This document shows positions 1-22,229 of a stretch of DNA of 22,526 bases, one piece after another. The stretch comes from a virus. The translations under genes were made by a program, and so were the position numbers. The notes below the pieces were generated by a model. The model did not search any database. It worked only from the letters and a program-made list of their open reading frames with translations, and was not told the DNA's origin. The stretch is taken from positions 1-22,526 of IMG/VR virus record IMGVR_UViG_3300044608_001459; one strand, written 5' to 3'. Each line of letters starts with the position of its first letter. Position 1 is the first letter of the stretch.

Positions 1-318
1 TTTCTGCATAATAAAGCAGCTGCAGTTGTGCTCTGACATCGTAGCCAAGTGCCTGACTTACGCTTAGAATGGTTTGAATATTGAACCCTGCGATGCTGCC
101 GTTTGGGTAGTAATTAAGTTGCCCGCTACAGATCGTCAGCACTTCCCAGGCTTCAAAACCTTCCTGAGTGATGGCTTCGTTTGTGATGTAAGGGCATAAC
201 TCTCCTGTCAGGTGGCTGGGTTCGCCTCTGCTGCAGGGGAGATTTTCTTCTTGGCATCCTCTGCAATATCCTGACCCGCCGCCGAAGTGCCATTTGCAGC
301 GAGCCTTGAGGAGTTTCC
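1..318 (-). CDS. Tail assembly chaperone, frameshift extension (T-like part of GT), partial
   Basis: This frame is open for 104 codons from the slip site at 313-319 to the window edge and has no ATG in that stretch. A TGA at 343..341 closes the frame 24 nt upstream of the slip site, so it opens only just before the slippery heptamer. It is the -1 frame relative to the 173-aa chaperone. The peptide begins with a Cys-rich stretch (RCKWHF, YCRGC, LPC, LCPY) and continues TQEGFEAWEVLTICSGQLNYY. The second part looks like the short DUF1799-type proteins that sit after the chaperone in siphophages. By analogy with lambda G/GT it should be made only as a fusion with the upstream 138-139 residues, giving a protein of at least 242 aa that loads on the tape measure during tail assembly. 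The remainder lies beyond the window. Confidence 0.7.
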
Positions 319-729
319 CTCGACTTCCAGCAGCGATATCTCAGCGGAATATTGTTTCCAGAAGTCCTGCGCTACAAACCAGATGGTCATCAGTTCTCTG
401 ATAGTTTGGTCATTGACAGGAGCGACTGCATCACCCGTTTTATCCATCACACCTTCCCAAGCGATAATGGCACCACGGGCAAGCGAACTGACCAGCAGAG
501 CCTCGGTCAAACCAATACGGGTGTGTTCATCATCCACATCAGGGATGTCGGAAACATCTGCGCCAATTTCAGATCGTGATTTGATCTCCTGCCGCCAGTC
601 GCTGATCTGCTTAATGACCGCAGCCTGCGCCGCGCTCATAATTGCGCTCGAAAGCGGACGGACTTTGAGCCTGACACCAGAGGGTAAATCCATCCAGTAG
701 GCTTCTTTCTTTAGATTCAATCTAAGCAT
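208..729 (-). CDS. Tail assembly chaperone (G-like), 173 aa
   Basis: This gene starts 9 nt after the tail tube gene with a strong AAGGAGG ribosome site just ahead of the ATG. Its position immediately after the tail tube is that of lambda gene G and the HK97 chaperone. The N-terminus (LNLKKEAYWMDLPSGVRLKVRPLS) is beta-rich and resembles the start of many siphophage chaperones; the middle is helical and the C-terminus is low complexity (KKKISPAAEANPAT). Residue 138-139 (Gly-Asn) is encoded by the GGA-AAC of a slippery heptamer, and 35 codons lie after it in frame 0, so the normal product terminates at 208 while a minority should shift to the -1 frame. I do not recognise a specific named family; the role rests on context plus the frameshift signal. 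Confidence 0.75.
   Translation of the reverse strand: MLRLNLKKEAYWMDLPSGVRLKVRPLSSAIMSAAQAAVIKQISDWRQEIKSRSEIGADVSDIPDVDDEHTRIGLTEALLVSSLARGAIIAWEGVMDKTGDAVAPVNDQTIRELMTIWFVAQDFWKQYSAEISLLEVEGNSSRLAANGTSAAGQDIAEDAKKKISPAAEANPAT
273..319 (-). promoter_or_regulatory. Programmed -1 frameshift signal (slippery site plus stem)
   Basis: Read on the minus strand, the heptamer G GGA AAC (319..313) is in the correct register for simultaneous slippage to GGG AAA. It differs from the lambda G/GT site GGGAAAG only in the last base. A 7-nt spacer (312..306) follows. Then GGCTCGCTGC (305..296) can pair with GCGGCGGGTC (282..273) over 10 bp, including three G-U pairs, around a 13-nt loop. The -1 frame is open from here to the window edge and closed 24 nt upstream. 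Sequence, register, spacing and stem all agree with known -1 frameshift signals. Confidence 0.75.
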
Positions 730-738
730 AAAACCTCC

Positions 739-2013
739 TTATGGGTAGCTGGTGACATCGTTTTTCAGAACAACAGTGGCGGATTTGCTGAGTGCATCGT
801 CGTACACGCCTTGCCAGTTGAAGCTCGCCTGCACGCCACCTGGCCCCGAAACGGGGATGCGCGGCCGTGGCAAATACACTTCGTGGAATGTCCATGTGAG
901 TGAGAAGTTATTGCCATCCAGCCCCGCGAGTTTGTAGGCGAGCTCCAGTTCGATCGCGTTGTTGTTGATTGCATCATCCACCAGCGTGGTGTCCGCAAAG
1001 CGCACATCGATGCTGCCGTTTATATTAATGATGGTGGGATCGACCGCCTCGATCAGTCCGTCATTACGGATGGTCTGTACGGCTTGCATCCCATTGGAAT
1101 AGGTAAACTGCGCCCCAGTAATGTTGGCCAGCGATATGCCGTTACGCTTGATCGAGCCGTTGAACTGGCTGAAAGGCTTATAGAAACGGCTGGTGGGTGC
1201 GCTACCTTGCGTGCTGGTGAATCGTGTTTCACCCTGGGCGATGATATTCAGCGTGGCATTGGCAGATCCAGAACGCTGGAAATTCAGTGCCATGCTATTG
1301 AGCATGCAGCCTGTATGCACGAAATAAGCTGGCACATTCACATGCCCGATTTCCGCCGCAAAAGATGGAAGGCTGGCTGCACCGCTGATGAATGTGTGGT
1401 TGTAGCCACCGCCTGAGAGCGTTGCACCGCTTGCCACACCATTCGCATTGCCAGAAGCAATCGTGAATGCGTTACCTACTGCGCCTAGCGTGTCATGGGT
1501 AAAGCCAAGCTTTGTGCCCCCCACATTCGCATAAGTCACAGGGGTAATGCTGGCGTTGACCGAGGCATTAAGGTCAGTTGCCAGCTGCGTGAGCGTGGCA
1601 TTCAGGTTCGCGCCAATATTGGTTTGCGTGCCCGTCGCACCAGAGGCAACAAACGTCCACACCACGCCGTTAATCGTAATGGTATGGCCTGAGCTGGGGT
1701 TGGCGGCAAAGGTGATGTCACCCGTTGCGGCGACAGCCACAGAAGTTGGATTGCCGAGAAGGAATTGCAGCCAGCGGCCAAAGTCACGGCCTTCCACTGG
1801 CACCACCAGATTGCCTTCATCGTTAATCACATCACGGAACGGTGCGCGGGCTTCGCGTCCTTGCCCCAGCAGATCGGATGAAAGCAGATTTTGTTCTGCG
1901 CTTAAGTCAGAGGACACAAACGCGAATTTTTCCCAGTTACCTGACGGCTTTGTGCCGTAGGTTGCTTCTTTCAAGGCAAGCAGGGTCGCTGCCGAGCCAT
2001 AGGATCGAGCCAT
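739..2013 (-). CDS. Phage tail tube (major tail) protein, 424 aa, with inserted domain
   Basis: The start is supported by a GGAGAATTTT-ATG ribosome site. The N-terminus (MARSYGSAATLLALKEATYGTKP, SDLLGQGREARAPFRD) and C-terminus (LAYKLAGLDGNNFSLTWTFHEVYLPRPRIPVSGPGGVQASFNWQG) fit the large tail-tube proteins of lambda-like phages of Alphaproteobacteria. Residues about 97-205 form a Thr/Ala/Asn/Gly-rich block with a repeated beta-strand pattern (HTITINGVVWTFVASGATGTQTNIG). Such blocks are common as surface-exposed decoration domains inserted in phage structural proteins, and this would explain the length above typical tube proteins. The gene lies between a tail-terminator-like gene and the chaperone, the standard order. 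The protein would polymerise into the hollow tube of the non-contractile tail. Confidence 0.8.
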   Translation of the reverse strand: MARSYGSAATLLALKEATYGTKPSGNWEKFAFVSSDLSAEQNLLSSDLLGQGREARAPFRDVINDEGNLVVPVEGRDFGRWLQFLLGNPTSVAVAATGDITFAANPSSGHTITINGVVWTFVASGATGTQTNIGANLNATLTQLATDLNASVNASITPVTYANVGGTKLGFTHDTLGAVGNAFTIASGNANGVASGATLSGGGYNHTFISGAASLPSFAAEIGHVNVPAYFVHTGCMLNSMALNFQRSGSANATLNIIAQGETRFTSTQGSAPTSRFYKPFSQFNGSIKRNGISLANITGAQFTYSNGMQAVQTIRNDGLIEAVDPTIININGSIDVRFADTTLVDDAINNNAIELELAYKLAGLDGNNFSLTWTFHEVYLPRPRIPVSGPGGVQASFNWQGVYDDALSKSATVVLKNDVTSYP

Positions 2014-2034: not shown

Positions 2035-2472
2035 TTAATTGAGTGGATCAGAGGTGAAGAAGCGCACCATAATCAGCACCGTGGCGGTGCGAACGCTAGC
2101 CGCTCCTTCAATGGGTTCTTCCTGAAATTCTGGAGATCGCGCTTCGATCCACTCGGCTAACCCGTCAAGCGTGCGATTGGCATTGATAACGCTGCTAATG
2201 CCTACCAGCAGTGCGTCGATGGTGGTGTTTCTGATCGTAGGATCTGGGTTTTGCACCATGATTTCTGCGGTTACCAGATGTTCGTAAATGTACGTCAGTG
2301 GCGAGAGCAGCACTTCAGGTTCTTCGCCACTGCCATCCCGCAAGATGACGATGCCGCCAGAGGGGATTTTCTGTGGCTTATCAAGGTTGCGGTAAACCTT
2401 GAGGGAAGCCGTTTCCAGCGTTTTTAGATTGACCGCCAGCCGATCCAGAACCTGTTCACGTTTACTCGTCAT
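2035..2472 (-). CDS. Tail terminator-like minor tail protein, 145 aa
   Basis: A 145-aa protein (MTSKREQVLDRLAVNLKTLE ... PDPTIRNTTIDALLVGISSVINANRTL ... SVRTATVLIMVRFFTSDPLN). The N-terminal helix followed by an alternating strand pattern, the 'E..V...D' surroundings and the place just before the tail tube match the lambda gpU / tail-terminator group, which caps the tube and joins it to the head connector. Its start overlaps the last 11 bases of the DUF6441-like gene, indicating translational coupling. Related phage proteins have been database-labelled 'acyl-CoA transferase', for which I see no support here. The assignment is by context and overall pattern, not by a diagnostic motif. Confidence 0.6.
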   Translation of the reverse strand: MTSKREQVLDRLAVNLKTLETASLKVYRNLDKPQKIPSGGIVILRDGSGEEPEVLLSPLTYIYEHLVTAEIMVQNPDPTIRNTTIDALLVGISSVINANRTLDGLAEWIEARSPEFQEEPIEGAASVRTATVLIMVRFFTSDPLN

Positions 2473-3893: not shown

Positions 3894-5924
3894 TTATGCG
3901 CCTGGGTTTCTCCAGAAACCTCGCCAGTCCATCGCTTTGGCGGCGAAATTAAGGCGTGCTTTCAGTTCCACACCATCGACATCAAAGCCGACACGACTTT
4001 CGAGATACACGCCTTCCTGGCCTTCAAGATAAGCATACTCAATCGTATCGATCTGGGCAGGGTCAGCGGCAAGATACCAGGAAATGAGCGATGCAGCGTC
4101 AAGACGAGGCTCGGCAATAACCTGAAGGTTGTTCGCAAACGGATTGAAATCAGATGCTTTTGCATAGACGATATTCGTCTGCGTCACATACTGCTGGGCA
4201 ACTGTTTCAATCGAAGCTGGAACAAGCAGGTATTTAGGCTGCACGTTAATGAATCGTCCGTTCAATCCTTTTTGCTTACGCATAGCGGCGCGACCATCAC
4301 CCAGAGGAGTGATGCCAATCGCAGCACCAGCGCCAGCAAGGTTTGCGTGCGTTGCATGGAACAATGCCAGACCATCACCCATCGTCGGGTTGCTGGTGAT
4401 GATGCCCCATACCGTATCGCTCTCAAGGTCAGCCGCCGCACGGCCAAACATCTCAGGCAAGCGCGTGAATGCACCCAGATCATCATTGATGATGGTCTGA
4501 CGGGTAACCGCCAAAACTTTACCATAAGTTGCCAGCGCATATTGTTCACGCGCTTCACCTACAGTGCCGCGCTTGAATTCACCAGCCTCATTGACCTTAT
4601 CCAGCGAAGGCGCATCACCCAACTGTGTGCGGGCAATGGTTTTGAAGTCAGGGTTGGTGGTCTGACGGCAGAACCCTTTGAAGGTCTGTGGAGCAGCTTC
4701 GTAAGCGGCACGCAACGTTTTGTTTGCCACGTTTGCGAGAATGAACGGAAAATCGCTGTTGGAGTGCAAGCCACCGCGGGTTTCCAGTCCCAACATCATG
4801 CCCGCCACTTCCGATTTGGAAAGACCGCGAGAGCGGATTCCATGGCGTTCGAGCAGGTCACGACCCATTTCCATCAAGGACATGCCACGATACTCGCGTG
4901 CGCCATCATCAAGCTTGTATCTTTGCGGATCATGACGGTAGAGCAACGCGTTTTCCACCATAGCACGCGCAGAGTCCATCTCGTCACGCAGGATGGAAAT
5001 CTGCGGACGGATTTCACCATGCTCTGTGCTTTTGCGTGCCAATTCATCCAGCACCAGCTTGCGAGCTTGAGGAATGGCAGTGCCGTCACTTACTAATTTC
5101 TGGGCAAATGTGTCGGGCAGCATGGCCGCGCGGGTGATCTTGGTGATCTCCGCAGTGCGCTGGCGTTCCAAGCGAGCACCTTCGGCACGCGCTTCGTCGG
5201 TAGAAGCAGGTGTTTCGGTTTCAGGGTTGGAAGGCGTTGCCGCAGGGGTGTTTTCTGCAGGCTGAGTTGCAGGATCTTCTTGTTCCTGTGGTTTGTTATC
5301 AAGGTCAGTCATAAGTCTTAACTCCTTTAAAGGTTGAGGATTAATGACCTCACACGGGAATGTGTGAGGGGCGGAACGAATGCCAGCGCCAGCATCCGCG
5401 CCGATGGGAACCAACGAAATTTCGTATGGCTCCCAATCGACAGCGCGGTAAAGCGGCACCGCGCCATCACTGCGAATGACCTCGTATCGGTGGACACGAT
5501 AGCCGACGCTGACATTCCGGATGATTCCATCCCGAATTTTGCGAATGACAGATTCATTCTCTGCGCCCCCGTCGATCTTCAAGCTGGCGTAGCCAAGCCC
5601 GTTCTCGGTGCGTGCGCTACCACCAACGACCACGCCCTTGATATTCTCAATGGCAAAGTCGCTGTGGGTGTCGAGCACTGGGGCAGAACCAGAATTCAAC
5701 CTGCCGAGCCGAACGGCAGATGGATCAACCATCAGTTCTTCATCATAGGTTTCGTCTGCCATAAAATTGTATCGACGCACGATTGCGCCTGTGGTGAACA
5801 CCACATTGAACACTCGTTCCTCGTTGTCCGATTGCTGGTTTTCAAAACTTGCCAGTCGGGTTTGTAGAGGCAGAGTTGTTCGAATAACCGCAGGGTTATC
5901 CCTGGGAATTGTTGCCGTTGTCAT
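3894..5924 (-). CDS. Prohead protease / major capsid protein fusion, 676 aa
   Basis: The start is MTTATIPRDN at 5924, preceded by AGGAGCG at good spacing; the frame runs to 5993 without a better site. The start overlaps the portal gene by 29 bases. Residues about 20-190 form a U35-type prohead protease: the catalytic His is expected at H87 (VLDTHSDF) and the Ser at S139 (IIRNVSVGYRVHRYE). A Pro/Glu/Thr-rich linker (about 205-265) and a charged coiled segment follow, acting as a scaffold-like delta region. The capsid part starts at about residue 350 and ends VGFDVDGVELKARLNFAAKAMDWRGFWRNPG. Such single-chain protease-capsid fusions are known in siphophages of Alphaproteobacteria. Self-cleavage must release the shell subunit. 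An internal start at residue 205 has its own strong ribosome site. Confidence 0.85.
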   Translation of the reverse strand: MTTATIPRDNPAVIRTTLPLQTRLASFENQQSDNEERVFNVVFTTGAIVRRYNFMADETYDEELMVDPSAVRLGRLNSGSAPVLDTHSDFAIENIKGVVVGGSARTENGLGYASLKIDGGAENESVIRKIRDGIIRNVSVGYRVHRYEVIRSDGAVPLYRAVDWEPYEISLVPIGADAGAGIRSAPHTFPCEVINPQPLKELRLMTDLDNKPQEQEDPATQPAENTPAATPSNPETETPASTDEARAEGARLERQRTAEITKITRAAMLPDTFAQKLVSDGTAIPQARKLVLDELARKSTEHGEIRPQISILRDEMDSARAMVENALLYRHDPQRYKLDDGAREYRGMSLMEMGRDLLERHGIRSRGLSKSEVAGMMLGLETRGGLHSNSDFPFILANVANKTLRAAYEAAPQTFKGFCRQTTNPDFKTIARTQLGDAPSLDKVNEAGEFKRGTVGEAREQYALATYGKVLAVTRQTIINDDLGAFTRLPEMFGRAAADLESDTVWGIITSNPTMGDGLALFHATHANLAGAGAAIGITPLGDGRAAMRKQKGLNGRFINVQPKYLLVPASIETVAQQYVTQTNIVYAKASDFNPFANNLQVIAEPRLDAASLISWYLAADPAQIDTIEYAYLEGQEGVYLESRVGFDVDGVELKARLNFAAKAMDWRGFWRNPGA
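5310..5328 (-). promoter_or_regulatory. Internal ribosome site and in-frame ATG in the protease-capsid gene
   Basis: AAAGGAG (5328..5322) lies 9 nt before an in-frame ATG (5312..5310, residue 205, MTDLDNKPQEQ). The ATG falls exactly at the junction between the protease and the acidic linker. Initiation here would give a 472-aa scaffold-capsid protein without the protease, analogous to lambda Nu3 made within gene C. The match to the anti-Shine-Dalgarno is at least as good as that of the gene's main start. Confidence 0.6.
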
Positions 5925-7416
5925 AGATTTGCGCTCCTGAAGATTCGGTTTGCACCATGCCGCTCTTGGCGGTTTTGCGTGGATCGGAATCAAGGATCAC
6001 ACCCAAAGCATCGAGTTGATTGTTGGTTGCGGCGATCTCCTGAATCTGCTGATCTGGGTCATAACCCTGACGCGCTATGGCTTCTTTCTGTGTCAATGTT
6101 CCATTACGCATCATAAGCGTATCGGCCTGCGCGTCTTTGAGCGGATCGACCATCTCAAATTTCGGCGGTGTCCAGCTGACGGCATAATCCGCCTTGTTGA
6201 TGACACCAGCGATCAGCGCACGATCAATGAATCGACGCCATATCGGATCACAGATTTTCGGTATAAACACATGGCCGCGCAACATTTCTACCAATCGGCG
6301 GAACTCGAGCAGTCCTGCGCGTAGGCTGCTGTAATTGACCTGGCTTAAATCGCCTGTCAGCTGCTCATAGGTAATGCCAAGCCCTGCAGCAATCGCATGC
6401 AGTTGCACGCGCTCATAGGACTCATAATTCCCATCGCTGCTGGGATTGCCAAAGCGTACATCCTCACCAGGCTGCAGATATTCAATCATGCCTGGGCGGA
6501 ATTCCTCGACTTTCTGGGGCTCGCCCCCAGCCGTATTACCTTTGCGTGATACATTCCCGACAATGGGGCCGTCTGCGCCGTTGTTCTGCACCACGAAGGC
6601 GGCAAAACAGGCTTCAATCTTCTTGCGCCAGAGTTCGGCATCGTCATAGCCATCCAGATCGCGCATACGCACGATCGACGGTGCAAACGCCGTCACACCA
6701 CGATATTGCCCAGGGCGAAGCTTGCGGAACACATGCAGTATCTGGTCGGCTGGCACGCGCACGCTTTGGAAGTTGGTTTTGCCAACAATCGCTTCGCCTG
6801 GATGCTGCGGCCACATCCAGTAGGCAACCCGTCGATTCTGGCTATCAAACTCAATACCTTGGCGAATGACGTTGCCGTTTTCACCCTTGGTGGTTTTCGC
6901 AGTATCCAGAAAATCAGCTTCCAGAACCTGTAGCTGGAGCGGCACGCGCATGGTGTTGCTGAAGCCAATATCGCGGAAGCGGATAAAACATTCACCGCTT
7001 TCAAACATGGATCGCGCCGCCAGTGCCTGTAGCCCAAAGAAATTCAGATCGCCATCCGCATCACAGAACTGGCACCACTCGCGCCATGCCTCCATGATTT
7101 TTTCATTCAGCTTGTCGTTCTTGGTGCGTGCCTGCGCGGTGATGCCTTCACCAATCGCATTGCAGACAAAGACTTCGATTGCCTTGTTGCCATAGCAGTT
7201 ATTGCGAACCAGATCACGGGAACGCTCACGCAGGCGGTGGCCGCCGCTGGAGATTTCCGAATTGGCAGAATTGCCAGTGGTAATCCAGTCATCAATCCTG
7301 CGTCCAGCCTTTGCACCTTCATAGCCACGCGCCATCATATCCATGGCGATGCGGGCTTGTTTGCGCTTGAAGGCTGCTTGCGGCGAAAACATACCGATGA
7401 TGTCGTCAATCCACAT
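5896..7416 (-). CDS. Phage portal protein, lambda B family, 506 aa
   Basis: Full-length portal of the lambda type: ARGYEGAKAGRRIDDWITTGNSANSEI near the start, then RERSRDLVRNNCYGNKAIEVFVCNAIGEGI (the conserved 'LR.R.R.L..N.......' region), WCDADGDLNF-type segment around residue 120, SMFESGECFIRFRD, LQVLEADFLD, GIEFDSQNRRVAYWM, VPADQILHVFRKLRPGQYRGVTAF, and ITYEQLTGDLSQVNYSSLRAGLLEFRR. These match the family motifs in order. It forms the dodecameric ring at the head vertex through which DNA passes. It starts 1 nt after the gpW-like gene stop and its end overlaps the protease-capsid gene. The C-terminus (SSGAQIYDNGNNSQG) is low complexity, as usual. Confidence 0.9.
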   Translation of the reverse strand: MWIDDIIGMFSPQAAFKRKQARIAMDMMARGYEGAKAGRRIDDWITTGNSANSEISSGGHRLRERSRDLVRNNCYGNKAIEVFVCNAIGEGITAQARTKNDKLNEKIMEAWREWCQFCDADGDLNFFGLQALAARSMFESGECFIRFRDIGFSNTMRVPLQLQVLEADFLDTAKTTKGENGNVIRQGIEFDSQNRRVAYWMWPQHPGEAIVGKTNFQSVRVPADQILHVFRKLRPGQYRGVTAFAPSIVRMRDLDGYDDAELWRKKIEACFAAFVVQNNGADGPIVGNVSRKGNTAGGEPQKVEEFRPGMIEYLQPGEDVRFGNPSSDGNYESYERVQLHAIAAGLGITYEQLTGDLSQVNYSSLRAGLLEFRRLVEMLRGHVFIPKICDPIWRRFIDRALIAGVINKADYAVSWTPPKFEMVDPLKDAQADTLMMRNGTLTQKEAIARQGYDPDQQIQEIAATNNQLDALGVILDSDPRKTAKSGMVQTESSGAQIYDNGNNSQG

Positions 7417-9465: not shown

Positions 9466-9934
9466 AGAGGGCTATCTCGTTTAATGCTTCGCGCACCAGT
9501 TCCTCCAACCCGCCTTTGATTTCATGAAACTCCTTGAGCCCCATTGCCAGGTGCGCTCCACGAGTCGGGAGTGAAAGCAAACGAGAACGAGCCGCCATGA
9601 CGTAACCAGACCACTGTTCGGCGATTTGATCCTGTGACATCAATTCACCTTTGATCGTTTTCACCTCCAATTCTGTCTTGTCGGCTTGCGCCTTCAGCAG
9701 CCTTGCGCGTTCCTGGTGGCTATCGACATGGATGATTTCCTTGCCGAAGGCGCGTTCCTGCAAATAAGTAATGTAGCCGCGCACGCTGGCGACCAGATCG
9801 TATTTGCCTCGCTCAGATTTTGGGATGACACCTTCGCTTGCCAGCTGCTGCACCCGCCGTTCGGTCAGGTTAAACAGTTTGGCAATCGTGCTGACGGGAT
9901 AGGTTGGTGCGGACATAGGTTTCTTCGTATTCAT
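9356..9934 (-). CDS. Small terminase subunit, Nu1-like, 192 aa
   Basis: The N-terminus contains a winged helix-turn-helix of the Nu1/MerR-like type (VSTIAKLFNLTERRVQQLASEGVIPKSERGKYDLVASVRGYITYLQERA, about residues 14-62). A long helical segment follows (RARLLKAQADKTELEVKTIKGELMS), then the region for self-assembly and large-subunit contact. Members bind the packaging site and regulate the large subunit. The gene overlaps the C5 methyltransferase by 65 bases and the large terminase by 110. The second ATG (9916, MSAPTYPVS), preceded by GAAGAAACCT, may be the real start because no ribosome site precedes the first. Placement directly upstream of the large terminase supports the call. Confidence 0.82.
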   Translation of the reverse strand: MNTKKPMSAPTYPVSTIAKLFNLTERRVQQLASEGVIPKSERGKYDLVASVRGYITYLQERAFGKEIIHVDSHQERARLLKAQADKTELEVKTIKGELMSQDQIAEQWSGYVMAARSRLLSLPTRGAHLAMGLKEFHEIKGGLEELVREALNEIALYDPRKLRAIDLQNCEIDGTTAESDGESVGGYAPPTE

Positions 9935-10853
9935 TGATGCTGTGGGCGATCATTTCGGGAATGATCGGCACAACGGCGTTTCCAAGGCCGCACAAGCGTT
10001 CCTTGCGCGTTCCTCCCCCCGTCCACCCGATAGGAAAGCCCATTAGCCATTCCACCCAGTTCGGATTCAGGCCGTTATCTTGCAGTCGAGAAATTGCTGG
10101 CTCAGTGCTCCACCATGGAGTTCCTCCAAGGCTACGCAACAGGCTAACTTGTGACGGCTGAAGGATTTGCCCTCGCGGGCAAGCATCTCCAAAGAGATTG
10201 CCGTATCTTTCCAATCCCGCGCACAAGGGGTCGGCCAGAACTGGACATACCGTCCCAGTCCCAGGCTGCCGCTTACACCGTTCTTCGTGTATTTGCGGAT
10301 GATACCGCTTTTGCTCACCTTGAATGTATCGTGCTTGCCGAATATCTCGCCCACCGTTGCATCGCTCGCGGTTGGGGTAGGCAATAATCCAGATACGGTC
10401 GCGTCTGTGAGGTGCGCCAAGGGCGGAAGCTGGTATGCAATGCCATTCCGCATCATACCCGATCTGCCATAAATCCGTGAGGACGGTAACAAGTCCGCTA
10501 GATCGCAGGTTTGCCACATTTTCGATAATTGCATAGCGCGGTTTCAGTTCGTTGATTAAGCGCGCATATTCCTTCCAAAGCCCCGAACGACTGCCTGTAA
10601 TGCCCGCTTTCTTGCCAGCCACGGAAATGTCCTGACAGGGAAAGCCACCACAGATAATGTCGACGGAAGTCGGTAATGAATCTGCATTAAAATTTCGAAT
10701 GTCCGAGATAATCGGCGTATCTGGCCAATGTTCTGCCAATACGCGCTGACATGACGGCTCTATCTCGCAAAAGCCGATGGTTCTCCAGCCAGATCGCTTA
10801 AATCCAAGGGAAAACCCCCCAATTCCAGAAAACAGGTCTAGGACATTTAACAT
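9870..10853 (-). CDS. DNA cytosine-C5 methyltransferase (Dcm type), 327 aa
   Basis: Transfers methyl from SAM to cytosine C5. Motif I DLFSGIGGFSLGF (residues 6-18), catalytic PCQ in GGFPCQDISVAG (Cys73), ENV at 111-113, motif VIII APHRRDRIWIIAYP (148-160) and a C-terminal LNPNWVEWLMGFPIGWT plus motif X GLGNAVVP are all present. The variable target-recognition region is short. I chose the ATG at 10853; a TTG two codons earlier is also in frame, and neither has a good ribosome site. Placed between a divergent DUF3489 gene and terminase, it is likely a solitary phage methyltransferase that protects phage DNA against host restriction. A second, protein-like frame overlaps its middle (see findings). 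Confidence 0.9.
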   Translation of the reverse strand: MLNVLDLFSGIGGFSLGFKRSGWRTIGFCEIEPSCQRVLAEHWPDTPIISDIRNFNADSLPTSVDIICGGFPCQDISVAGKKAGITGSRSGLWKEYARLINELKPRYAIIENVANLRSSGLVTVLTDLWQIGYDAEWHCIPASALGAPHRRDRIWIIAYPNRERCNGGRDIRQARYIQGEQKRYHPQIHEERCKRQPGTGTVCPVLADPLCAGLERYGNLFGDACPRGQILQPSQVSLLRSLGGTPWWSTEPAISRLQDNGLNPNWVEWLMGFPIGWTGGGTRKERLCGLGNAVVPIIPEMIAHSINEYEETYVRTNLSRQHDCQTV

Positions 10854-10960
10854 GTTCAAAAATAATCACTATTTCTGCTTATTCGAGTTGATAAGTATGT
10901 TTTTCCAAGCGTTCATGAGGGTGTCCCGCGGGGCATTAACCACCAACCAGAGAGACTTTT

Positions 10961-11437
10961 ATGACTATCGAACTTAGCAAAACCCAGCAGAGCATCCTTG
11001 AGCAAGCAGCCATTGCCCCGGAAAACTGCATCCGCACTTTCATGAGCCACATTCCTGGCGCCGCACAGACGAAAGTCATCGATGCGCTGGTCAAGAAGGG
11101 ATGCGTGAAAAGCAAATCCCAGTTTCATCCCAGCGAACCAAACGACAAAGAGGTGCTTTACCACATTACCAACGAAGGGTTCGCGGCCATCGGCAAGGAA
11201 CCGAGCGCGGCAAAGCCAGAGGAACTATCGCCCCCTGAAAAACCGAAGCGTATTTCCAAACAATCCACCATGCTCGACATGCTGCGCCAAGGCACAACCA
11301 TCCAAGCCATTATGGATGTCACCAGCTGGCAAAAGCACACGGTGCATGGCTCCATGGCGAACCTGAAGAAGAAACTCGGACTCACCATCACCAGCGATAA
11401 AGCTGAGGGTGGTGAGCGTATCTACCGAATTGCCTAA
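10961..11437 (+). CDS. DUF3489-domain protein, 158 aa
   Basis: The only rightward gene inside the phage block. A GAGAGAC ribosome site lies 4 nt before the ATG. Residues about 1-75 look like a winged-helix (KTQQSILEQAA, AQTKVIDALVKKGCVKSK, VLYHITNEGFAAI). The C-terminal half matches DUF3489: KQSTMLDMLRQGTTIQAIMDVTSWQKHTVHGSMANLKKKLGLTITSDK and GERIYRI, also a small HTH-like fold. Its stop overlaps that of the converging ParB-methyltransferase gene by 4 bases, and it diverges from the C5 methyltransferase. Function is unknown; a DNA-binding regulatory role is inferred from the two predicted winged-helix parts. Such proteins are common in prophages and genomes of Alpha- and Betaproteobacteria. 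Confidence 0.8.
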   Translation: MTIELSKTQQSILEQAAIAPENCIRTFMSHIPGAAQTKVIDALVKKGCVKSKSQFHPSEPNDKEVLYHITNEGFAAIGKEPSAAKPEELSPPEKPKRISKQSTMLDMLRQGTTIQAIMDVTSWQKHTVHGSMANLKKKLGLTITSDKAEGGERIYRIA

Positions 11438-12717
11438 GCATCTGCGCCAAGGCGTTCCGCTTGAAGGTCAGCGAATAGCTGGCCTTCTTCGTTGGTTGCC
11501 TTTTTGCCCGTGAAGTCCTGCCAGCGTTTGACAATCACATCACAGTATTTCGGGTCGAGCTCAATCAGCCGCGCCAAGCGGTTGGTTTTCTCACAGGCAA
11601 TCAGGGTGGAGCCTGAGCCACCGAAGCAATCCAGCACGGTATCACGGGTCTTGCTGGAATTCTCAATAGCACGCTGCACCAGTTCGACCGGCTTCATAGT
11701 CGGGTGCAGGTCATTGGTGCGTGGTTTGTTGAAGAACCACACGTCACCCTGGTCACGCGCTCCGCACCAGAAGTGCTTATTACCTTCTGGCCAGCCATAA
11801 AGAATCGGCTCGTACTGGCGTTGATAATCAGCGCGGCCGAGCGTGAATGTATTTTTTGCCCAGATGATGAAGGTTGACCAATGTCCGCCGCCCTCACGGA
11901 AGGCTTTTTGCAGCGTATCCAATTCCGAAGATGACATGCAGATGTATATCGCGCCTTTGCAATGCTTCACCGTGTTCTGGCATGCAGCCAGCAGGAAGCC
12001 GAAGAAATCATCGCCCAGATTATCATTCATAATCTTGCGGCCAGCTTTCGCTCCGCCCTTGGATCTAATCTTGTCTTTAGCGGTTTCACCGTAATTCACA
12101 TTGTAAGGCGGGTCGGTGAAAACCATGTCTACAGGGTTGCCGCCAAGCAACCGATTATAATCATTAGGGCTTGTAGCATCTCCGCAGACCAAACGGTGTT
12201 CACCCAACAGCCAAACATCCCCCAGGCGTGAAGTGGCGACTTCAGGGGCTTCGGGTATCGCGTTATCATCGGTTAATCCTTCCAGATCCTCGTCATTCAG
12301 CAAGGCTTCCAATTCCTCCGCATCAAAACCCGTTAAGCCAAGGTCAAAGTTAAAATCCTTAAGCTCGCCGAGTTCGATGGCAAGCAGTTCGCTGTCCCAT
12401 TCCGCTTCTTCATGGGTGCGGTTATCCGCGAGGCGATAGGCCTTCACCTGCGCTTCGGTAAGACTCTCAGCGATATGGACTGGTACGGTTGCCAGTTCCA
12501 GTTGCTGGGCGGCAAGCAGGCGCGTGTGGCCAACGATGACCACCATGTTGCTGTCCACTACGATCGGCTGTCTCCATCCGAATTCACGGATGCTGGCTGC
12601 GACCTTGGCGACTGCTGCCTGGTTGTTTCTTGGATTACGCGCATAGGGAATTACGCGCTCGATTGGTGTAAGCGAAACGTGCATACTTCGGCTCTGCTTT
12701 TGAGTGAATGTTGGCAT
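11434..12717 (-). CDS. ParB-domain DNA methyltransferase (beta-class, N6-A/N4-C), 427 aa
   Basis: The N-terminal ParB/Srx-like domain (residues about 14-100) has VIPYARNPRNN, IREFGWRQPIVVD, VIVGHTRLLAAQQL and YRLADNRTHEEAEWD. The methyltransferase domain has motif IV DPPYNVNYG (202-210) before the SAM-binding motif I DCFGGSGSTL (about 363-372), the beta-class order, with HPTMKPVELVQR preceding it. It would modify adenine N6 or cytosine N4. These two-domain enzymes are frequent in prophages, usually without a cognate nuclease. The frame is open to a GTG at 12801, with other Met choices at 12738 and 12684; none has a clear ribosome site, so the start is uncertain and I chose the ATG nearest to where the ParB fold begins with a short lead. 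Confidence 0.88.
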   Translation of the reverse strand: MPTFTQKQSRSMHVSLTPIERVIPYARNPRNNQAAVAKVAASIREFGWRQPIVVDSNMVVIVGHTRLLAAQQLELATVPVHIAESLTEAQVKAYRLADNRTHEEAEWDSELLAIELGELKDFNFDLGLTGFDAEELEALLNDEDLEGLTDDNAIPEAPEVATSRLGDVWLLGEHRLVCGDATSPNDYNRLLGGNPVDMVFTDPPYNVNYGETAKDKIRSKGGAKAGRKIMNDNLGDDFFGFLLAACQNTVKHCKGAIYICMSSSELDTLQKAFREGGGHWSTFIIWAKNTFTLGRADYQRQYEPILYGWPEGNKHFWCGARDQGDVWFFNKPRTNDLHPTMKPVELVQRAIENSSKTRDTVLDCFGGSGSTLIACEKTNRLARLIELDPKYCDVIVKRWQDFTGKKATNEEGQLFADLQAERLGADA

Positions 12718-12946
12718 TTCAGGGCGTTGTGCGCCCATTAGCGAAGAGAAATCGTTATTTTCATTCTGTCGCTGGCAGAATCCCGCGCATCGCGCCCCCA
12801 CATAGGACTTTCGCAGGAAGTACCTAAGCCGTGGGGGGCCTGTGTGGACGTGCGCTTGAGGAGGATTTCAAGAGGTGGGCTGTAGCCATGCACCTCTCGC
12901 GATTATGCCTCTAATAATGCCAGAAAATGTTGCAAATGTGGAGAAC

Positions 12947-20292: not shown

Positions 20293-21243
20293 ATGAAAAT
20301 AGTGTCTCTTTTCTCTGGCTGTGGCGGCCTTGACATTGGCTTTATCAACGCGGGCCATGAAGTCATATGGGCTAATGATATTGATGGAGATTCCGTCTCG
20401 ACCTACATCAAGAACATTGGCAATCATGCTGTTCACAGTCCCATTCAGGACGTTTTCTCTTCGAGCATCCCAGACTGTGATGTCGTTATAGGCGGATTTC
20501 CTTGCCAAGGGTTTTCGCAAGCTAACCGCCTACGCTTTGAAGAGGACGATAGGAATAGGCTTTATTTAGAATTCCTGAGAGTCATCCGCGACAAGCAACC
20601 AGCATACTTTTTGGCTGAAAACGTAAGAGGGATCCTTAGCCTTGCAAGCGGAAGAGCCATTCAGAAGATCGAGGAAGATTTTTCCTCCGCTGGATACAGG
20701 GTGCAGACACAATTATTCAATGTTGCTGACTTCGGCGTTCCACAAAACCGCTGGCGCGTAATTATTGCAGGCACAAGGAAAGACCTTCCCGTCAATGAAA
20801 ATTACGCATACCCCACACCAACGCATGCTAACCCTAAAAAAGCACGAGGTATTATTAAGCCGTGGGTAACAATTGGTGAGGCCTTGAAAGGCGTCCCTGA
20901 ACCAGAGAGCTGTCACAGTTTGCCCAACCATATTTATTCACGGTATAAAGTAACGAACCGCAACTTCACTGGCCACAGAACCACTGATCCCGATAAGCCA
21001 TCGCCAACTATTCTTGCGAGAGGTAATGGCGGCGGCGGGGTGTGTGCCATTCAGCACCCGAATAATCATAGGCGCATGTCAATTCGGGAGCAAGCCATCA
21101 TTCAAACTTTCCCATTGGATTTTGAATTCATCGGGGCCATGAATTCCTGCTATCGACAGGTCGGGAACGCTGTTCCTGTTCTCTTTGCTCTGCATCTAGG
21201 TAATAATCTCAGCAAGGCCTCAAGGATTAGGAGGGCGGCATAA
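20293..21243 (+). CDS. DNA cytosine-C5 methyltransferase 1 of the R-M pair, 316 aa
   Basis: Complete C5 methyltransferase: motif I SLFSGCGGLDIGF (5-17), catalytic PCQ in IGGFPCQGFSQANR (Cys71), ENVRGI (109-114), motif VIII VPQNRWRVIIAG (about 148-159) and motif X RQVGNAVPVLF near the C-terminus. The target-recognition region (about 170-255) ends RNFTGHRTTDPDKPSPTILARGNGGGG. The start touches the preceding stop, and the stop shares one base with the next ATG (TAATG). It is clearly related to the downstream enzyme (same start, PTHAN, GEAL, HPNN.RRM blocks), suggesting duplication and divergence. Paired m5C enzymes usually modify the two strands of an asymmetric site; that is inferred, and the target sequence cannot be read from the gene. 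Confidence 0.92.
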   Translation: MKIVSLFSGCGGLDIGFINAGHEVIWANDIDGDSVSTYIKNIGNHAVHSPIQDVFSSSIPDCDVVIGGFPCQGFSQANRLRFEEDDRNRLYLEFLRVIRDKQPAYFLAENVRGILSLASGRAIQKIEEDFSSAGYRVQTQLFNVADFGVPQNRWRVIIAGTRKDLPVNENYAYPTPTHANPKKARGIIKPWVTIGEALKGVPEPESCHSLPNHIYSRYKVTNRNFTGHRTTDPDKPSPTILARGNGGGGVCAIQHPNNHRRMSIREQAIIQTFPLDFEFIGAMNSCYRQVGNAVPVLFALHLGNNLSKASRIRRAA

Positions 21244-22229
21244 TGAAGATCGTTTCTCTGTTTTCAGGGTGCGGTGGACTTGATCTCGGTCTTATCGAGT
21301 CTGGCCACGAAGTCATATGGGCCAATGACATTTTTGCCGAGGCCGCGCAAACGTACCGCCACAATATTGGTTGTCATGTGGATGAGCGTGACATTAGGAA
21401 TATACCTTCTTCTGACATTCCTGACTGTGATGCAATTGTTGGAGGTTTTCCTTGCCAAGGATTTTCCGTTGCCAACATGAAGCGCAATGTTTCTGACATC
21501 AGAAACCAGCTTTACCGTGAGATGGTACGTGTCATACACGATAAACAGCCAAAGTTTTTCATTGGTGAGAACGTCAAGGGCATTGCTTCGCTTGGGGGCG
21601 GCGCGGCACTTGAAAAAATCATCACAGATTTTGGTAAGGCTGGATACAATGTGAATTGGAAAGTCGTCAATGCAGCAGATTACGGGGTTCCCCAAAAGCG
21701 CATGCGTCTTATCATCTTTGGCATAAGGAAAGACCTTGTGTTGAGCGGGACTTTTTTTCCGCCGGAGCCCACACATGCTAATGCGGAACTGGCAAAGGCA
21801 TTGAAACTGAAGCCATGGCTAACAGTTGGAGAAGCATTGGCGCACTTCCCTGATCCAGATACCATAAATGGCAAACGCATTCCCAACCATGAAGCCTCGC
21901 AATATAAGCTGCGCTTTAATGGTCATTTGGGTCACAGATTCATTGACCCAGACCAGCCGGCCCCTACAGTTACGGGGCGCGGCGATGAAAAAGGCGGGGT
22001 TGTCGTTTTGCATCATCCTAACAACAACCGGAGAATGACAGCGCGGGAACTAGCAGCCGTTCAATCATTCCCAGATAATTTCGTGTTTTCCGGCGCAAAA
22101 ACATCTGCCTATAGGCAGATAGCCAACGCCGTTCCCCCACTTCTTGGCAAGGCTATTGGCCTGATGCTGGGAATAAATGAGCAACGGATGGTTAAATTAT
22201 CCCCACAGAAATCAAGGAAGCGAGCATGA
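21243..22229 (+). CDS. DNA cytosine-C5 methyltransferase 2 of the R-M pair, 328 aa
   Basis: Second C5 methyltransferase: motif I SLFSGCGGLDLGL (5-17), PCQ in VGGFPCQGFSVANM (Cys71), ENVKGI (about 109-114), motif VIII VPQKRMRLIIFG and motif X RQIANAVPPLLG, where Ala replaces the more common Gly before Asn (a known variant). The recognition region differs from the first enzyme mainly between residues 170 and 235 (ALKLKPWLTVGEALAHFPDP, GKRIPNHEASQYKLRFNGHLGHR), as expected if the pair recognise different strands. The ATG shares one base with the previous stop, and its TGA overlaps the next ATG (ATGA), so it is in the middle of a tightly coupled operon. Confidence 0.92.
   Translation: MKIVSLFSGCGGLDLGLIESGHEVIWANDIFAEAAQTYRHNIGCHVDERDIRNIPSSDIPDCDAIVGGFPCQGFSVANMKRNVSDIRNQLYREMVRVIHDKQPKFFIGENVKGIASLGGGAALEKIITDFGKAGYNVNWKVVNAADYGVPQKRMRLIIFGIRKDLVLSGTFFPPEPTHANAELAKALKLKPWLTVGEALAHFPDPDTINGKRIPNHEASQYKLRFNGHLGHRFIDPDQPAPTVTGRGDEKGGVVVLHHPNNNRRMTARELAAVQSFPDNFVFSGAKTSAYRQIANAVPPLLGKAIGLMLGINEQRMVKLSPQKSRKRA

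Follow-up and report, generated by a model that had tools for sequence, protein, structure and literature searches.

The tail assembly chaperone gene at the left end of a linear 22.5-kb virus record (22,526 nt, analysed over its full length and referred to here as the window) almost certainly contains a programmed -1 frameshift cassette of the lambda G/GT type. The short zero-frame product is referred to as G, the -1-frame extension as T, and the predicted fusion of both as GT. The mechanism is a known one, and we infer the slipping itself and its rate, as well as what G and T do. Neither T nor the tape measure gene is complete in the window. The features concerned are the following.

1..319, minus strand: T, the predicted -1-frame extension of GT, 106 residues including the heptamer codons, ending at the window edge (reading frame; dN/dS)

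23..106, minus strand: DUF7697-like C-terminal domain of T (window E 0.09, which is sub-threshold; 61 of 62 relatives match)

194..292, minus strand: WHFGxG motif followed by four cysteines, immediately behind the slip site (residues invariant in 62 relatives)

208..729, minus strand: G, zero-frame tail assembly chaperone, 173 aa (phrog_313 match; AlphaFold2 order and disorder)

273..305, minus strand: putative stimulatory stem-loop, 305..296 pairing with 282..273, loop 295..283 (fold, recoding test, covariation)

306..312, minus strand: spacer TCCTCAA, 7 nt (read directly)

313..319, minus strand: slippery heptamer GGGAAAC (read directly; position shared by the canonical heptamers of 166 of 170 loci)

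341..343, minus strand: TGA closing the -1 frame upstream (read directly)

739..2013, minus strand: tail tube protein, the gene before G (Phage_tube_2, E 5.5e-45)

2035..2472, minus strand: tail terminator (phrog_4204, E 1.2e-22)

The ORF of G starts at 729, which makes 319 the last position of a codon; the heptamer is thus divided as G_GGA_AAC in frame 0 and, after the slip, as GGG_AAA in frame -1. The upstream TGA rules out a -1-frame start further upstream, and from the heptamer to base 1 the -1 frame remains open for 104 codons. The heptamer, 7-nt spacer, 10-bp stem, TGA, and 104 codons had been located in a sequence-only reading of this DNA, and all of these coordinates were exact on rechecking. 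Taken alone, the elements of the cassette are unremarkable relative to chance: GGGAAAC was seen once in the window, with 3.2 occurrences expected from window shuffles, and seven in-register X_XXY_YYZ sites (Y being A or T, and X different from Y) were present in the 6,860 codons of its main ORFs. Sequence comparison indicates that conservation among relatives lifts the cassette far above chance. No conserved upstream Shine-Dalgarno-like stimulator was seen by eye in the listed family sites. Right after the heptamer (position 312, minus strand), the window has a thymine in place of a guanine, and its T begins with GKL versus GKR in relatives; this leucine in place of a nearly invariant arginine following the heptamer codons was found in the window only.

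Relatives were collected with the -1-frame protein as query and with search patterns that did not include the heptamer. The best 80 of 470 confirmed viral loci and the best 80 of 158 confirmed genome loci, together with loci of the first searches and the window, gave 170 loci (some of them copies of one contig), which corresponded to 146 distinct regions and 62 clusters at 85% identity. A canonical X_XXY_YYZ heptamer was located exactly 27 nt upstream of the -1-frame tryptophan codon in 166 of the 170 loci listed, including 85 GGGAAAC, 80 AAAAAAC, and one GGGAAAG. By cluster, 37 contained AAAAAAC, 23 GGGAAAC, one GGGAAAG, and one GGGGAAG. The four non-canonical loci consisted of this GGGGAAG (L024) and three N-masked or indel-like sites. 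The natural GGGGAAG variant lies immediately 3' of a -1-frame TGA (L024, 2889-2895) and is possibly a slip site that is weak or involves one tRNA only, or else an error in the sequence. The other three (L100, L101, and L133) are from one Defluviicoccus genome (CP058705.1), and their slip sites lie beside N-masked bases or apparent A-run indels, which are probably homopolymer errors. An independent search with DUF7697, which covers the C-terminal end of T, recovered an in-register heptamer in all matches above the Pfam cut-off except L183, and the heptamer was kept also where WHFS, WHFxPGGG, or WAWRGG replaces WHFG. The heptamer uses GGG and AAA only, whereas in T GGG accounts for 20% of the glycine codons and AAA for 52% of the lysine codons; the synonymous options at the heptamer (other glycine codons, AAG, and AAT) were essentially never seen.

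The dN/dS of the -1 frame beyond the stop of G was 0.08-0.29, a range that indicates purifying selection. Extension beyond the window edge had been proposed as a check, and in a 96% identical relative with the same cassette (L004/L006, IMGVR_UViG_3300042691_049416) the -1 frame continues with homology to give a T of 130 residues, the end of which overlaps a lambda-type tape measure gene. T starts with K-R-x-x-A-x-x-x-W-H-F-G-x-G, numbered from the second residue, and W10, H11, G13, G15, C19 (265..263, minus strand, as are the following), C22 (256..254), C29 (235..233), and C42 (196..194) were invariant in 62 relatives. The cysteine-rich stretch noticed earlier after the slip site is a conserved one, and its four invariant cysteines are probably a zinc site. 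AlphaFold2 returned a confident helical model of T (pLDDT 89). In Foldseek, the predicted fold resembled annotated "tape measure chaperones", with probabilities of 0.97-0.99 for several but E-values of 0.08-0.4; those of Enterobacter phage F20, Escherichia phage vB_EcoS_W011D, and Klebsiella phage Solomon are alike in predicted fold (TM ~0.45-0.5) and low in sequence identity to T.

The C-terminal part of T had been described as DUF1799-like. DUF1799 matched 23 of the 62 relatives (best E 2.3e-6) and gave no match with the window; DUF7697 fitted best, with matches in 61 of the 62 relatives at E <= 0.1 (best 2.4e-26). No Pfam family scored above its cut-off with the window's own -1 product; for DUF7697 the score was 13.2 bits versus a cut-off of 27, the domain being cut by the window edge, and L004 scored 15.2 bits. 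Parts of T also matched phrog_11212 (53/62) and phrog_23549 (12/62).

Initiation inside the -1 frame was considered as another source of T. Neither ATG nor TTG was found in the -1 frame of the window, as far as ATG is concerned in line with the sequence-only reading, and one GTG is present at 142..140. The further claim, that independent initiation could not reach the extension, is correct for the WHFG/Cys part, but a start at this GTG could in principle yield the DUF7697-like end. A short T that is produced by internal initiation besides GT is improbable, because the internal start codons found in many members vary in kind and place even among the nine closest members. It is less credible still that T has a start of its own as a separate gene and that the heptamer is incidental. 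Such a gene could use the GTG in the window or the internal ATG or GTG of several relatives, and two phage records are annotated in this way; however, the GTG is downstream of the best-conserved part of T (WHFGxG and CxxC), which follows right behind the heptamer, the frame is shut upstream by the TGA, and the heptamer is fixed in 166/170 loci.

The stem-loop behind the spacer consists of 10 pairs in the window, including seven Watson-Crick and three G-U pairs. A 45-nt piece folded at -19.1 kcal/mol (z -2.81 relative to dinucleotide shuffles), and no excess stability was detected for a 108-nt piece (z 0.34). Relative to synonymous recoding, the window stem had a z of -2.10. Across the 62 clusters, the segment after the heptamer was more stable than its -1-frame synonymous recodings (mean z -2.15 +/- 0.15), whereas the following four segments of T had z between -0.20 and +0.11. 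In the 19 clusters with a zero-frame stop one codon past the heptamer, the stem z was -2.10; coding in the other frame is therefore not the cause. The covariation in the stem was 0.216 versus 0.133 in shuffled data, and in the window register both sides had changed in 35 cells versus 16.4 in shuffles, with lower values for slid registers. RNAalifold did not find a single common stem in 61 sequences, because the helix changes register: at least two registers were observed, in which the glycine codons are GGC GGG or GGG GGC, mostly tracking the codons that they face. The synonymous-recoding test was thus used in place of a family consensus from RNAalifold. A loss of heptamer or stem in related phages, which would have spoken against the cassette, did not occur (166/170 loci; stem mean z -2.15). 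A pseudoknot between TGGCA in the loop and a downstream TGCCA was not supported; the window and its close relatives contain it, but overall only 15 of 146 sequences do, and the codons at these places explain it. It is very unlikely that the heptamer and the stem merely result from the overlap of two coding sequences (E-G/K-N in G; G/K-K-R and ARxxWHFGGG in T). In favour of this reading, residues E137 and N139 in G, and K2 and R3 in T, are nearly invariant; against it, synonymous alternatives at the heptamer are essentially never used, and the stem exceeds synonymous recoding also in clusters whose zero frame stops immediately.

The G part matched phrog_313, "Tail assembly chaperone" (window E 7.6e-8), as did all 37 of 37 relatives. 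In the AlphaFold2 model of G, a core of approximately residues 10-138 was ordered (pLDDT >90), and pLDDT dropped to approximately 50 after residue 140, so that the tail past the slip site is predicted to be disordered. Predicted order in G ends at approximately residue 138, right around the slip point, which suggests that the zero-frame tail of G may be dispensable and that GT would be composed of the G core and T. No match was found in a PDB fold search with either G or T.

The gene is bordered upstream by the tail tube gene of the window and downstream, in relatives, by a tape measure gene. The latter was identified after T in L004, L005, L043, and L144, and an ORF of more than 300 codons lay behind T in 48 of the 56 relatives with enough sequence. 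In L004, the ORF overlapping the end of T matched Tape_meas_lam_C (1.7e-22) and TMP_2 (1.2e-8). The initial proposal of a -1 frameshift in a tail assembly chaperone is thus upheld by the phrog_313 match, by the tape measure gene that follows in relatives, and by the conserved heptamer and stem. The owner of the gene is a siphovirus-like phage, probably with an alphaproteobacterial host. The T of L091 and L092 is 68% identical to that of L004, and both contigs are from MAGs labelled Rickettsiales; this label is possibly a hint to the host, or the phage contigs may have been misbinned.

In the proposed mechanism, most ribosomes would translate G and terminate at the stop at 208. A minority would pause at the stem-loop with the P- and A-site tRNAs on GGA and AAC, and these tRNAs would slip back by one base to GGG and AAA. 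Reading in the -1 frame would then yield GT, consisting of the G core and the helical T with its four-cysteine module, and would end where T and the tape measure gene overlap. The binding roles of G and T are taken from lambda: by analogy, the tape measure protein may be coated by G, and GT, the rarer product, may recruit tail tube subunits via T.

The last codon of the heptamer was AAC in 165 of the 166 canonical sites, although in E. coli an A-site AAG slips far more readily than AAC (PMC5009743). It is argued in PMC5009743 that, where a second lysine tRNA is present, its tight pairing with AAG would make slipping poor. Pattern matches to tRNA-Lys(CUU) were obtained in 7 of the 12 family genomes tested, and ARAGORN called a tRNA-Lys(ctt) at seven of the eight matched places, with all seven genomes covered. 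The choice of AAC may be explained by hosts with tRNA-Lys(CUU), in which AAG would be a poor slip codon. A broader proposal can be made tentatively and with some doubt: T domains would form a widespread family, mainly in phages and prophages of Alphaproteobacteria, in which a Cys4 zinc module immediately behind the slip site would be obligatory and would let GT acquire metal-dependent folding only via the frameshift, and with AAC used over AAG nearly always because the tRNA-Lys(CUU) of many hosts makes AAG slip poorly.

The frameshift of lambda G/GT (Levin, 1993; Xu, 2013-2014; as described in PMC5009743) has in common with the cassette in the window the position between tail tube and tape measure genes, the X_XXY_YYZ -1 slip, and the short G and long GT. 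On the other hand, lambda has GGGAAAG, whereas the window has GGGAAAC, a conserved stem-loop, and the Cys4 module in T. GGGAAAC has been described in G/GT-type chaperone genes of Caulobacter phage Colossus (PMC3556154), Burkholderia phage KL1 (PMC3483164), and the haloarchaeal virus HCTV-1 (PMC5009743), and the likeness of these three to the window consists of the heptamer and the gene type. The closest described system is gp16/gp17 of RcBaka (MW677509), which, with kindred Rhodobacter phages of the RcC cluster, is described in PMC8601537. RcBaka resembles the window in gene order, GGGAAAC, and a 10-bp stem, its T part contains WHFG, Cys4, and DUF7697 as in the family, and its capsid and protease genes are fused as in the window. 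It belongs to a different lineage, with approximately 33% amino acid identity in G and 31-33% in T. The fusion gene of the window (5993..3894, minus strand) encodes a head maturation protease-major capsid protein of 699 aa (phrog_4523, E 6e-238), as is likewise found in the RcC phages of Rhodobacter.

Automated annotation had been expected to miss the second product or to split it off. This was found in two cyanophage records, Nostoc phage Nsp-JY21 and Synechococcus phage Sc-Yong805-1, in which the heptamer is AAAAAAA and a separate 77-aa gene, lacking the Cys module, is annotated at an internal ATG, but not in RcBaka and its kin, where a joined G-T CDS is already annotated. The Pfam family DUF7697 covers the C-terminal part of T only and carries no note on function or frameshifting, PHROG 11212 and 23549 are listed as of unknown function, and a literature search found no mention of DUF7697. 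Such C-terminal-only models are consistent with truncation as in Nsp-JY21 and Sc-Yong805-1, and a second gene that is truncated and has no conserved Cys part is probably present in many deposited phages and prophages. Both DUF7697 and phrog_11212 can now be given a name, as they represent the C-terminal part of the frameshift-made T domain. The mechanism being established already, the gain, modest on the annotation side, lies in annotation and comparison. Nature offers approximately 170 of these sites, in which two heptamers replace each other and the stem changes register, as a ready set for testing which bacteria slip on AAC rather than AAG.

Several other observations were made. The sequences of Sc-Yong805-1 (L174) and Nsp-JY21 (L175) are the same over the listed tail-chaperone stretch, despite the different host genera reported, and apart from these two the chaperone family is mostly alphaproteobacterial. 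Elsewhere in the window, two adjoining cytosine-5 DNA methylase genes (20293..21243 and 21243..22229, plus strand) share 53% identity and a short start/stop overlap, and are probably a tandem duplication. A third C5 methylase is encoded at 10859..9870 (minus strand), and a fusion of ParB with an N6/N4 methylase at 12801..11434 (minus strand).
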